Of a stretch of DNA of 38,382 nucleotides, positions 1 through 38,382 are shown in pieces. The stretch is from a virus. Location of the stretch: IMG/VR virus record IMGVR_UViG_3300042260_000169, positions 1 to 38,382 of that record; one strand, written 5' to 3'. How positions within the stretch are numbered: the first letter of the stretch is position 1; every line of letters starts with the position of its first letter. Position numbers and translations under genes: made by a program. The notes below the pieces were generated by a model that saw nothing but the letters and a program-made list of their open reading frames with translations, was not told the origin of the DNA and made no database searches.

Positions 1-107
1 ACGATACAACTGACCCACGCTCTGTTAAAAGCATGAGCACGTCAGAATGGATTGAAGCAGAACGCCAACGCCAGATCAAGAAGTACGAAGCTCAGAGAAA
101 CCGCTAA
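1..107 (+). CDS. Scaffolding protein, C-terminal fragment (5' cut by window edge)
   Basis: The first in-frame codon starts at base 3, and 34 residues run to a TAA at 105-107. The peptide is identical to the last 34 residues of the complete scaffold gene at 36816-37604, including the basic C-terminal helix that ends EAQRNR. In P22-type phages the basic C-terminal helix of scaffold binds coat during procapsid assembly, and this segment is its equivalent by position and charge. This allele ends AAC-CGC-TAA, whereas the right-hand copy ends AAT-AGA-TAG; the protein is the same. Confidence 0.9.
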   Translation, partial: DTTDPRSVKSMSTSEWIEAERQRQIKKYEAQRNR

Positions 108-310
108 CCCATTTTTTGAAAGAATAAAATGTCAAATTCAATCTTAACCATTGACATGATTACTCGTAAGGCCTTAGAAATCCTCGAGAACAATCTTGTC
201 TTAACTCGTAACGTAAACCGTCAATATGACGACTCTTTCGCTGTAGAAGGCGCTAAAATTGGTTCTACATTGCGTATCCGCTTACCGGATCGTGCTTTAG
301 TAACTGACGG
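1..310. repeat. Left copy of the terminal overlap (HNH-free allele)
   Basis: Bases 1-100 are identical to 37498-37597 and bases 201-310 are identical to 38273-38382. Between these blocks the left copy has only 100 bases (101-200), while the right copy has 675 bases holding an HNH gene and a synonymous variant of the coat 5' end. The simplest reading is one locus sampled twice when a circular or circularly permuted genome was assembled from a mixed population. A real duplication at the ends of one molecule is less likely, because each copy is cut at an arbitrary codon. Confidence 0.85.
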
Positions 311-1331
311 CGCAGCTTTGCAAGTTCAATCAGATAACGAACAGTACACAACTTTGTCAGTTGCTTCACAAAAGCACATTGGCGTGAACTTCACATCTGC
401 TGAATTGACAATGCAGTTAGACGACTTCGCAGAGCGTGTTTTGAAACCACGTATCTCTCAGTTGGCTTCTTCTATCGACGCTGACGTAGCTAACAGCTAC
501 AAAGCAATCGGTAACTCAGTTGGTACTCCTGGCACAACTCCAGCTACTTCATTAGTATTGTTGCAAGCTCAACAAAAACTAAACGAAAACGCTGCTGTTA
601 TGTCACCACGCTACGCTACTGTTAACCCAGCAGCTAACGCTGGCTTAGTTGAAGGCATGAAAGGTTTGTTCAATCCAACAGACACAATCAGCCGTCAATT
701 CAAGAACGGTATGATGGGTATGGGCGTATTGGGCTTCGACGAAGTTAATATGTCACAGTCTATCAAGCAACATACAAACGGCGACTGGGGTACAGGCATC
801 ACTGTAACTTCAACAGTTACAACTGAAGGCGCTACTTCTATCGGTATCAACTTCACTGGTTCTAGCAAGACTTGGAACGTTGGTGACGTGTTTACTATCG
901 CTGACGTATACGCTGTTAACCCACAAACTCGTGAATCAACTGGCTCACTACAACAGTTCACTGTAACTTCTGTAGCAACTGGTTCTTCAACAGCTACTTT
1001 GAACATCAGCCCTGCGCTTTACTCTGCTGGCCAAGCTTTGGCAACAGTAGCAGCATTGCCTATCGCTGGTAAGACAGTAACTATGTTGGGTTCTGCTAAC
1101 GGCCAATACGCTCAAAACTTGGTATACCACAAAGATGCAATCACTTTCGCGACTGCTGACTTGTTGATGCCACAGGGCGTAGACATGGCGTCACGTCAAG
1201 TTCATAACGGTATTTCAATGCGTATTGTTCGCCAATACGACATTAACAATGACCGTATGCCTTGCCGTATTGACGTTCTTTATGGCTACAGCACAATCCG
1301 TCCACAGATGGCCTGCCGTATTTGGGGCTAA
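129..1331 (+). CDS. Major capsid (coat) protein, P22 gp5-like
   Basis: This 400-residue protein follows scaffold directly, as coat does in P22-type phages. The length is close to P22 gp5 (430 residues). The ending, with GYSTIRPQMACRIWG, resembles the GVNATRPEA region near the end of P22 coat. The N-terminal arm is charged and polar, a central stretch around residues 130-165 (TTPATSLVLLQAQQKLNEN) is the likely spine helix, and the Thr/Ser/Gly-rich stretch near 230-310 could be an inserted domain. It would form the icosahedral shell around scaffold. Codon use is strongly biased, as expected for the most highly expressed virion gene. A second, synonymously different copy of the first 61 codons lies at 38201-38382. 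The family assignment rests on resemblance and synteny. Confidence 0.85.
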   Translation: MSNSILTIDMITRKALEILENNLVLTRNVNRQYDDSFAVEGAKIGSTLRIRLPDRALVTDGAALQVQSDNEQYTTLSVASQKHIGVNFTSAELTMQLDDFAERVLKPRISQLASSIDADVANSYKAIGNSVGTPGTTPATSLVLLQAQQKLNENAAVMSPRYATVNPAANAGLVEGMKGLFNPTDTISRQFKNGMMGMGVLGFDEVNMSQSIKQHTNGDWGTGITVTSTVTTEGATSIGINFTGSSKTWNVGDVFTIADVYAVNPQTRESTGSLQQFTVTSVATGSSTATLNISPALYSAGQALATVAALPIAGKTVTMLGSANGQYAQNLVYHKDAITFATADLLMPQGVDMASRQVHNGISMRIVRQYDINNDRMPCRIDVLYGYSTIRPQMACRIWG

Positions 1332-24772: not shown

Positions 24773-24787
24773 AAAAAAACCATATTA

Positions 24788-24865
24788 CCCGCAAAGCCTT
24801 ACGGCATAAGGGCGCCCAGCTTTTATAGCCCGCAAAGCCTTACAGCATAAGGGCGCCCAGCTTTC
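24788..24865. repeat. Tandem 41-bp direct repeat
   Basis: Two near-identical units (24788-24824 and 24829-24865, period 41) share CCCGCAAAGCCTTAC and GCATAAGGGCGCCCAGCTTT, differing at one base plus the ends. Each unit has a small CCTTA/TAAGG dyad. Position upstream of terS would also suit part of a packaging signal. Confidence 0.8.
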
Positions 24866-36815: not shown

Positions 36816-37604
36816 ATGGACGAAAGTCAAGAAGTAGTACCAGCGGAAGTACCCGCGCCGGAACTGGAAGCAACGGCTGCACCAGAATCTGAAGTAGTAG
36901 CGCCGGAAGAAACGCCAGTTGAGCAGGCCGCTAAGACCTTCACACAAGAAGAATTAGACGCTGCGATTGGCAAAAGGCTCGCAAGAGAGCAACGTAAGTG
37001 GGAAAGAGAACAGGCTGCAAAGCAAGCAGAAATGCAAGCCAAGCGCGCAGTACCAGCCGAACTCCCGCCTGTCGATTCGTTTGAATCGCCTGAAGAATAT
37101 GCCGAATTATTGGCAGAACGTAAGGCAGAAGAACTACTCGCCAGACGAGAGCAAGCTAGACAGCAAGCCGAACTCCTTGAGGCATTTCACGACCGTGAAG
37201 AAGAAGCTAGGACTAAGTATGATGACTTTGAACAAGTTGCCTACAACCCTAAACTTCCAATCACAGACGCAATGGCTCAAACGATTCAAGCGTCCGAAGT
37301 TGGGCCAGATATTGCCTATTATCTAGGTAGTAACCCCAAGGAAGCTGAACGTATTTCACGCTTATCTGCACTGATGCAAGCGAAGGAAATTGGCAAGATT
37401 GAAAGCAAATTAGCTGACAATCCGCCTGTAAAGAAAACCTCGAATGCTCCGGCGCCTATTGCTCCGGTGACGGCTAGAACCTCTGGTTCGCCTGCATACG
37501 ATACAACTGACCCACGCTCTGTTAAAAGCATGAGCACGTCAGAATGGATTGAAGCAGAACGCCAACGCCAGATCAAGAAGTACGAAGCTCAGAGAAATAG
37601 ATAG
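36816..37604 (+). CDS. Scaffolding protein
   Basis: This 262-residue protein is acidic and Ala/Glu/Pro-rich at the N-terminus (EVVPAEVPAPELEATAAPE), has a long charged helix (residues 45-120, QEELDAAIGKRLAREQRKWE), and ends in a basic helix (SEWIEAERQRQIKKYEAQ). It is typical of scaffold proteins that direct coat assembly and leave before maturation. It precedes coat, and ends AAT-AGA-TAG within the inserted 572-bp segment, while the HNH-free allele ends AAC-CGC-TAA. AAGGAAA precedes the ATG. The 85-base gap before it holds no further gene. Confidence 0.85.
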   Translation: MDESQEVVPAEVPAPELEATAAPESEVVAPEETPVEQAAKTFTQEELDAAIGKRLAREQRKWEREQAAKQAEMQAKRAVPAELPPVDSFESPEEYAELLAERKAEELLARREQARQQAELLEAFHDREEEARTKYDDFEQVAYNPKLPITDAMAQTIQASEVGPDIAYYLGSNPKEAERISRLSALMQAKEIGKIESKLADNPPVKKTSNAPAPIAPVTARTSGSPAYDTTDPRSVKSMSTSEWIEAERQRQIKKYEAQRNR

Positions 37605-37620
37605 TAATACCTGATGATTT

Positions 37621-37639
37621 CATGTAAGATGATTACATG
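37621..37639 (+). other. Hairpin overlapping the HNH start codon
   Basis: Perfect 7-bp arms CATGTAA / TTACATG with a GATGA loop; the second arm contains the ATG (37637-37639). No Shine-Dalgarno is present. This would hide the start codon in any mRNA that reads in from scaffold. Confidence 0.65.
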
Positions 37640-38176
37640 GATAATTCAGAAAAAAGTGTTGTAAAGGGTACTCCGTACTCAGAAGTCGAACAGCTAAAGC
37701 GGGAACGCAATAGGGAAGCGGCTGCTAGGTATAGAGAACGTAACCGGGAACGGTATAACCAACGTATGCGCGATTGGCGAGAAAATAACAAAGAGAAATC
37801 TTTGCAACAAGCTCGTGAGTGGCGCAACCGCAAGTTAGCGAATGGTTCACCAGAAGAAGTAGCCGCTATCCGCGCTGCTGAAGCTGCAAAAACCAAACGA
37901 GCGCAAGCGGTGTGCAAGGAAGCTGTGTTTACTGCTTATGGTGGATACAAGTGTGCTTGCTGTGGTGAAACTGAACCTATGTTTTTATCGATAGACCATG
38001 TACATAACGACGGAAATGTTGAAAGAAAATCAGGCTTATACCGCGGAAGTGGATCAGCTTTCTATCAATGGTTGCGTAAAAATGATTTCCCTTCAGGGTA
38101 TCAGGTGTTGTGTATGAACTGTCAAATCGGAAAACATAAAAACGGCGGTGTGTGCCCTCATCAAGACTTCCGCTAA
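37637..38176 (+). CDS. Free-standing HNH endonuclease inserted between scaffold and coat
   Basis: This is a 179-residue protein. A basic, arginine-rich helical N-terminus (about 20-75, RNREAAARYRERNRERY) probably contacts DNA. The HNH/zinc core has CACCGETEPMFLSIDHVHND (about 108-127) and VLCMNCQIGKHKN near the C-terminus, as in a common phage HNH family. Its final Arg codon and stop (CGC TAA) coincide with those of scaffold in the HNH-free allele. Different in family from the other HNH gene at 27548. Likely a homing endonuclease targeting HNH-free scaffold/coat junctions. Confidence 0.9.
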   Translation: MDNSEKSVVKGTPYSEVEQLKRERNREAAARYRERNRERYNQRMRDWRENNKEKSLQQAREWRNRKLANGSPEEVAAIRAAEAAKTKRAQAVCKEAVFTAYGGYKCACCGETEPMFLSIDHVHNDGNVERKSGLYRGSGSAFYQWLRKNDFPSGYQVLCMNCQIGKHKNGGVCPHQDFR

Positions 38177-38200
38177 CCATTTTTTAAGGACTTACTAACC

Positions 38201-38382
38201 ATGAGTAACTCAATCTTAACGATCGACATGATAACCCGCAAGGCTTTGGAGATCTTAGAAAACAACCTAGTATTAACTCGTAACGTAAACCGTCAATATG
38301 ACGACTCTTTCGCTGTAGAAGGCGCTAAAATTGGTTCTACATTGCGTATCCGCTTACCGGATCGTGCTTTAGTAACTGACGG
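38201..38382 (+). CDS. Coat protein, N-terminal fragment (3' cut by window edge), HNH-linked allele
   Basis: The first 60 residues are identical to those of the coat at 129, but 15 of codons 2-24 differ, all silently; from codon 25 the DNA is identical to the window end. AAGGA lies upstream. It continues beyond the window in the same way as the coat at 129-1331. Confidence 0.9.
   Translation, partial: MSNSILTIDMITRKALEILENNLVLTRNVNRQYDDSFAVEGAKIGSTLRIRLPDRALVTD

Follow-up and report, generated by a model that had tools for sequence, protein, structure and literature searches.

A putative free-standing HNH homing endonuclease and a short, silently recoded tract at the start of the coat gene in P22-like environmental phages

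Introduction

Why should the first codons of a phage coat gene be rewritten, with every amino acid preserved, in the copy that lies beside an HNH gene? The question is raised by the window analysed here, the whole 38,382-nucleotide stretch of IMG/VR record IMGVR_UViG_3300042260_000169, in which genes of a P22-like podovirus are recognised (portal, PF16510; P22 coat, PF11651; scaffold, exonuclease, and family A DNA polymerase). The junction between the scaffold and coat genes is present at both ends of the window (1–310 and 37498–38382) in differing alleles, HNH-free at the start and HNH-bearing at the end (Table 1). A sequence-only reading had proposed that coat codons 2–24 hold the cleavage site of the HNH enzyme, and that their divergence marks a co-converted, resistant tract with a conversion or recombination boundary at its edge. 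Intronless homing, collaborative homing, co-conversion and the assumed resistance of the copied site are established ideas (PMC6083498, PMC2988022, PMC3984707, PMC12724721), and we have compared the locus across related phages with these in mind.

Results

Two alleles of one junction

An independent contig from another sample (L083, IMGVR_UViG_3300047483_000049) holds the scaffold gene, HNH gene, recoded tract and full coat gene contiguously, and matches the HNH-bearing arrangement of the window with 99.985% identity over 6,537 bases, i.e., one mismatch. The two alleles are therefore real and nearly isogenic, and the window ends represent two alleles of one junction in a circular genome of about 38,072 bp with the HNH gene and about 37,497 bp without it. 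Contig ends that carry two alleles are what an assembler is expected to produce when a circular genome comes from a mixed population; a check for end repeats would miss the circularity of this record, its overlapping ends carrying different alleles. Elsewhere in the genome, a region without long recognised genes holds two tandem 41-bp copies that are 93% identical (24783–24864).

The synonymous recoding described in the sequence-only reading is borne out: 18 of 72 bases differ between 129–200 and 38201–38272, spread over 15 codons and all silent, with 15 changes in third, two in first and one in second codon positions (for example Ser2, TCA in the HNH-free and AGT in the HNH-linked allele, and Leu19, CTC and TTA, respectively). 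Coat residues 1–60 are identical in both alleles. The flanks are likewise identical, as had been noted, over the 110 bases from the tract to the contig end and over the last 100 scaffold bases from the contig start; both identical stretches stop at contig ends, and their true length was taken from L083. On the coat side, the tract ends at coat nt 72, and on the scaffold side, the left edge of the exchanged cassette lies at 37597/37598. The scaffold gene of the HNH-bearing allele ends in AAT AGA TAG as compared with AAC CGC TAA, leaving the protein end unchanged (Asn-Arg-stop), and the 5′UTR ahead of the coat ATG also differs between the alleles.

Table 1. Features of the scaffold/coat junction at the two ends of the window
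Feature	Position	Strand	Evidence or remark
Scaffold gene end, HNH-free allele	1..100	+	Identical to 37498-37597
P22-type coat protein gene, HNH-free allele	129..1331	+	Pfam PF11651, E 5e-40; PHROG 283
HNH-free form of tract (T46, G60)	129..200	+	Near-match in L003
Head scaffolding protein gene, HNH-bearing allele	36816..37604	+	PHROG 8865 head scaffolding protein, E 5e-29
100 bases matching window 1-100	37498..37597	+	Sequence comparison
Hairpin CATGTAA-GATGA-TTACATG holding HNH start codon	37621..37639	+	Fold z = -3.1
Putative free-standing HNH homing endonuclease gene, 179 aa	37637..38176	+	PHROG 2255 HNH endonuclease, E 4e-9
P22-type coat gene start, HNH-linked allele, cut by contig end	38201..38382	+	Full length in L083
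Recoded, putatively co-converted tract, coat codons 2-24, 18 silent differences	38204..38272	+	Allele comparison, carrier/HNH-free pairs
Predicted core of homing target, coat nt 46-60 (codons 16-20)	38246..38260	+	Marker bases, intron site

The direction of the exchange is indicated by an HNH-free relative, L003, which is about 92% identical around the site and whose tract (with C46 and G60) shows only two differences from 129–200, suggesting that the latter is the recipient form. Since L003 carries nearly the HNH-free tract, the HNH cassette and its accompanying tract can be polarised as the presumptive newcomer.

The HNH gene and its upstream hairpin

The predicted HNH protein consists of a helical N-terminal part and a putative C-terminal nuclease part with the arrangement CxxC–DHVH–CxxC, and in the AlphaFold2 model (mean pLDDT 84) these appear as a helical segment followed by a compact C-terminal part. 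In an alignment of 33 relatives, the DH, the CxxC pairs and a CPH motif are invariant. Matches to HNH models are weak (PHROG E 4e-9; best Foldseek matches are HNH enzymes, E 0.25), and a Pfam search gave no match above cut-off (Endonuclease_7, E 0.12). Compared with the Endo VII-type pattern (CX2-4C–DHDH–R–CX2C plus N), CxxC, DHxH and CxxC are present with longer spacing, and the residue after the last cysteine is Gln rather than Asn in most relatives. No relatives were found in a search of genome contigs, and those in phage isolates are less than 60% identical over half of the protein.

The HNH start codon sits within a stable hairpin, reminiscent of those that limit the translation of homing endonuclease genes in T4 (PMC2988022). 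Comparable structures around (T)ATGATTAC, differing in their stems, are found ahead of many HNH genes in this family, both free-standing and intron-encoded, and could function as translational switch, operator or promoter; the motif does not recur elsewhere in the window beyond chance.

In three other phages (L045, L057 and L216) the same scaffold–coat gap holds an unrelated HNH_3 gene on the opposite strand, with NUMOD3 in addition in L057. At least two kinds of homing endonuclease have thus entered this gap.

Recurrence of the diverged tract across phages

Coat loci were gathered from IMG/VR by coat, HNH and DNA-pattern scans. They comprise 187 loci without HNH, 42 with a free-standing HNH gene between scaffold and coat, 34 with HNH in a coat-gene intron, and three with another insert in the gap, counts that include the window alleles and retain duplicates. 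As described for intronless homing, the HNH gene is optional between two conserved genes and absent from close relatives, and its distribution on a tree built from the remainder of the coat gene requires at least 22 changes.

Free-standing carriers and their nearest HNH-free relatives are 93.3% identical in coat codons 40–400 and 74.5% in codons 2–24, an excess tract divergence of 18.9 points (16 non-overlapping carrier/HNH-free pairs, Wilcoxon p = 3e-5). For intron carriers the corresponding values are 91.2% and 82.3%, an excess of 8.9 points (13 pairs). HNH-free nearest pairs have no such excess, with 91.8% in codons 40–400 and 92.6% in codons 2–24 (53 pairs); because of this difference from the carriers, the tract divergence is not a matter of chance. 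A short diverged tract in the neighbouring gene, repeated in independent pairs, is what co-conversion of flanking DNA in intronless homing would leave behind.

The proposed linkage of the tract to HNH proved strong in the comparison of homologues with and without the gene, but not absolute. In L006, whose genome is about 86–91% identical, the recoded codons 3–24 are present letter for letter without HNH and behind the HNH-free 5′UTR. The tract can perhaps travel alone, for instance by partial conversion, or the HNH gene may have been lost.

A group I intron inside the tract

An intron of about 750 nt interrupts the coat gene after nt 53 (codon 18) in L040 and many further contigs. It encodes an HNH protein, and these proteins are approximately 67–79% identical to that of the window. 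The insertion point between coat nt 53 and 54 corresponds to window 38253/38254, inside the recoded tract, and thus provides an independent mark of the target of the window enzyme's family. The introns have features that identify them as group I and predicted self-splicing: the exon segment GGAGAU forms P1 with GGUCUCC, placing a U·G pair at the 5′ splice site, the introns end in G, and P2 and several 3′ helices covary. The Rfam group I model RF00028 matches at 25–37 bits, which is below its gathering score of 50. A scan with the intron core returned 79 contigs, 74 of which have HNH inside the intron and coat exon 2 after it.

HNH-less introns of about 250 nt occupy the same coat site in L297 (3436–3693), L298 (3509–3760) and L319, with a closed tetraloop where other copies hold the HNH gene. 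The pairing that characterises collaborative homing, an HNH-less intron together with a free-standing HNH gene, occurs in none of the loci examined. More distant P22-type coat genes (35–42% identical; L148, L149, L150, L152, and L153) are also associated with related HNHs; L149, L150 and L152 show weak matches to the Rfam group I model, and in L148, judged by eye, the intron interrupts the coat gene around codon 15/16, which is within a few bases of the site at codon 18.

In close pairs, the right edges of the tract fall at coat nt 57–75, i.e., 4–22 nt past the intron site. The comparison across phages supports the proposal that codons 2–24 hold the target and form a co-converted, presumably resistant tract: an intron with a 78% identical HNH sits at codon 18, the tract is diverged in independent carriers, its right edges lie next to the intron site, and the marker bases described below recur in held-out carriers.

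Two marker bases flank the intron site

Over all unique tracts, free-standing carriers are best told apart from HNH-free genes by nt 46 (T in place of C) and nt 60 (A in place of G), both silent and located 8 nt before and 7 nt after the intron site. C46 is found in 94% of HNH-free genes and 6% of carriers (p = 1e-34, unique tracts), and A60 in 16% and 87%, respectively (p = 2e-20, unique tracts). T46 and A60 occur together in 45 of 53 free-standing carriers as compared with four of 153 HNH-free and one of 42 intron-bearing genes, so that the site in carriers differs from that in HNH-free genes, as resistance in intronless homing would require. In the first set of carriers these positions ranked first and fourth, and in 27 carriers that were fetched later and not used to define them, they were the top two. 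Ser2 and nt 55, which we also considered as members of the signature, had a strong association among the first carriers that dropped markedly among the held-out ones. Of 20 independent pairs on the coat tree, about 16 have T46 on the HNH-bearing side and none show the reverse association (p = 3e-5), while the control codon Leu6 has no association with HNH (p = 0.6).

The HNH-linked allele of the window has T46 (38246) and A60 (38260); since T46 is also present in the HNH-free allele, nt 60 is the only one of the two at which the alleles differ. The consistent changes are those at nt 46 and 60, and the majority of the 18 probably reflect the background of the donor. Most intron-bearing genes (36 of 42) have C46/G60, as would be expected if the intron itself separates the halves of the site. 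The carriers L020 and L374 have neither marker base, which means that protection can come from other bases or that these carriers encode altered enzymes, and three HNH-free tracts besides L006 hold both. HNH-free tracts with T46 are closer to carriers (p = 0.04), but they are also richer in TTR codons, and we therefore draw no claim from this closeness. As for leucine codons more generally, CTN is used in >90% of HNH-free genes at codons 16, 19, 23 and 48, and TTR in about 35% at codons 6, 52 and 57.

The Leu-Glu-Ile-Leu-Glu region forms an imperfect inverted repeat, CTNGA...TNGAG, around the intron site. This symmetry is suggestive only, since the repeated Leu-Glu codons produce much of it.

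Discussion

Proposed mechanism

Based on these comparisons, the insert very probably encodes a free-standing homing endonuclease, and its gene spreads, by intronless homing, together with a short, co-converted and presumably resistant tract of the coat gene. In HNH-free phages that infect the same cell, the enzyme would cut or nick the coat gene around codons 16–20. Repair from the carrier would then copy the HNH gene and the 5′ end of the coat gene, in a short conversion tract that stops 4–22 bases past the site, and the copied tract would leave the carrier uncut, as it differs silently at bases that the enzyme probably needs (nt 46 and 60). In intron carriers, the intron at nt 53/54 would itself interrupt the target, with no need for altered exons.

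The alternative that survives best accepts homing but regards T46 and A60 as inherited marks of one ancestral cassette, with protection provided by other bases. The free-standing HNHs form one clade, which makes a shared ancestral tract possible, and the two carriers that lack both marker bases point in the same direction. However, nt 46 changed once on the tree of free-standing HNHs, whereas most other variable silent sites changed 3–9 times, and the marks are retained in the held-out carriers to a much greater extent than Ser2 and nt 55. We regard this explanation as unlikely, but as the most serious competitor.

A second alternative leaves the enzyme uninvolved and the tract without function, ordinary homologous recombination between related phages having brought in the HNH gene along with diverged coat DNA. 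Phage mosaicism is common, the donor tract is diverged by 25% with all changes silent, like any related coat gene, and L006 shows a tract moving without HNH. Recombination of this kind would not readily place the right edge at nt 57–75 in close pairs across the coat tree, adjoining the intron site of the same enzyme family, nor produce the same short tract in intron carriers, nor fix nt 46 and 60 among carriers while adjacent silent sites vary, and we consider it improbable.

It is far less probable that the recoding serves expression of the coat gene behind the HNH gene, through RNA structure or the translation start. The tract does occupy the beginning of the coat gene and is accompanied by a changed 5′UTR, but in L006 the recoded codons sit behind the old 5′UTR, and the diverged tract is also found in intron carriers, where no gene is inserted before the coat gene. 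Furthermore, the two most consistent bases are in codons 16 and 20, while Ser2 weakens in the held-out set and Leu6 is null. The three unrelated opposite-strand HNH_3 genes in the same gap leave C46 in place, and we therefore reject the idea that any insert before the coat gene causes the recoding. An assembly artefact that joined two unrelated phages at a contig end could be imagined because one contig carries an allele at either end, as a mixed population would give, but is ruled out for practical purposes by the contiguous arrangement in L083.

Origin of the free-standing form

Free-standing and intron-encoded HNHs separate cleanly. In a tree rooted with a distant, mostly intron-encoded outgroup, the free-standing HNHs form one clade (96/90) with intron-encoded HNHs at the base, which tentatively makes escape from the intron the likelier direction; the caution is due to the long outgroup branches, and a single clade of intron-encoded HNHs is not rejected (p = 0.15). 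The opposite idea, that the intron captured a free-standing HNH, was first based on the MKTPSQ start of intron-encoded HNHs, which derives from intron sequence. It is weakened by the rooted tree and by the finding that distant intron-encoded HNHs share this start.

A possible, still tentative, picture is that one coat site exists in four states: empty, with a free-standing HNH and recoded site, with an HNH-less intron, and with an intron plus HNH. The free-standing enzyme would then be an intron escapee that has traded interruption of the site for two near-symmetric silent substitutions around it, as if an enzyme reading the inverted repeat had lost one base pair in each half-site.

Comparison with known homing systems

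As for F-CphI and psbA of cyanophage S-PM2, which represent collaborative homing (PMC6083498, Zeng et al. 2009), the free-standing endonuclease gene in the window adjoins a conserved gene, and its predicted target in this neighbour is also where a group I intron inserts (PMC6083498). The F-CphI carrier's own gene is protected by an endonuclease-less intron, whereas the free-standing carriers described here have no intron but a recoded site, and unlike in S-PM2, intron and endonuclease occur as one unit in separate phages (PMC6083498). F-CphI is an Endo VII-type (DHHRN) enzyme; the window protein, with CxxC, DHxH and CxxC and, in most relatives, Gln after the last cysteine, can be considered at most a candidate member of that family.

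SegF, SegG and MobE of T-even phages, known for intronless homing and marker exclusion (PMC2988022), are also free-standing endonucleases between conserved genes, with the target in the neighbouring gene and co-conversion of flanking DNA (PMC2988022). They involve other genes and are mostly GIY-YIG enzymes (PMC2988022), while in the window system the coat-side tract is very short and the putative target is independently marked by an intron. The intron of L040 and others resembles phage group I introns with HNH of the I-HmuI and I-TevIII type (PMC2988022, PMC3984707) in having the ORF in an intron loop, but the relatives' intron sits in a P22-type coat gene, and the HNH of the window is free-standing. 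A literature search covering papers outside subscription found no account of this HNH family or the coat-gene intron.

Ideas on how endonucleases and introns come to share targets, and on how free-standing carriers escape their own enzyme, have so far been drawn from a small number of examples in T4 and cyanophages. In the present set, which spans hundreds of environmental phages, a single site is found in all the proposed states; near-isogenic pairs of alleles are available, and the prediction concerns two bases. If the reading is true, homing would also account for synonymous recoding and short mosaic stretches where a major capsid gene begins.
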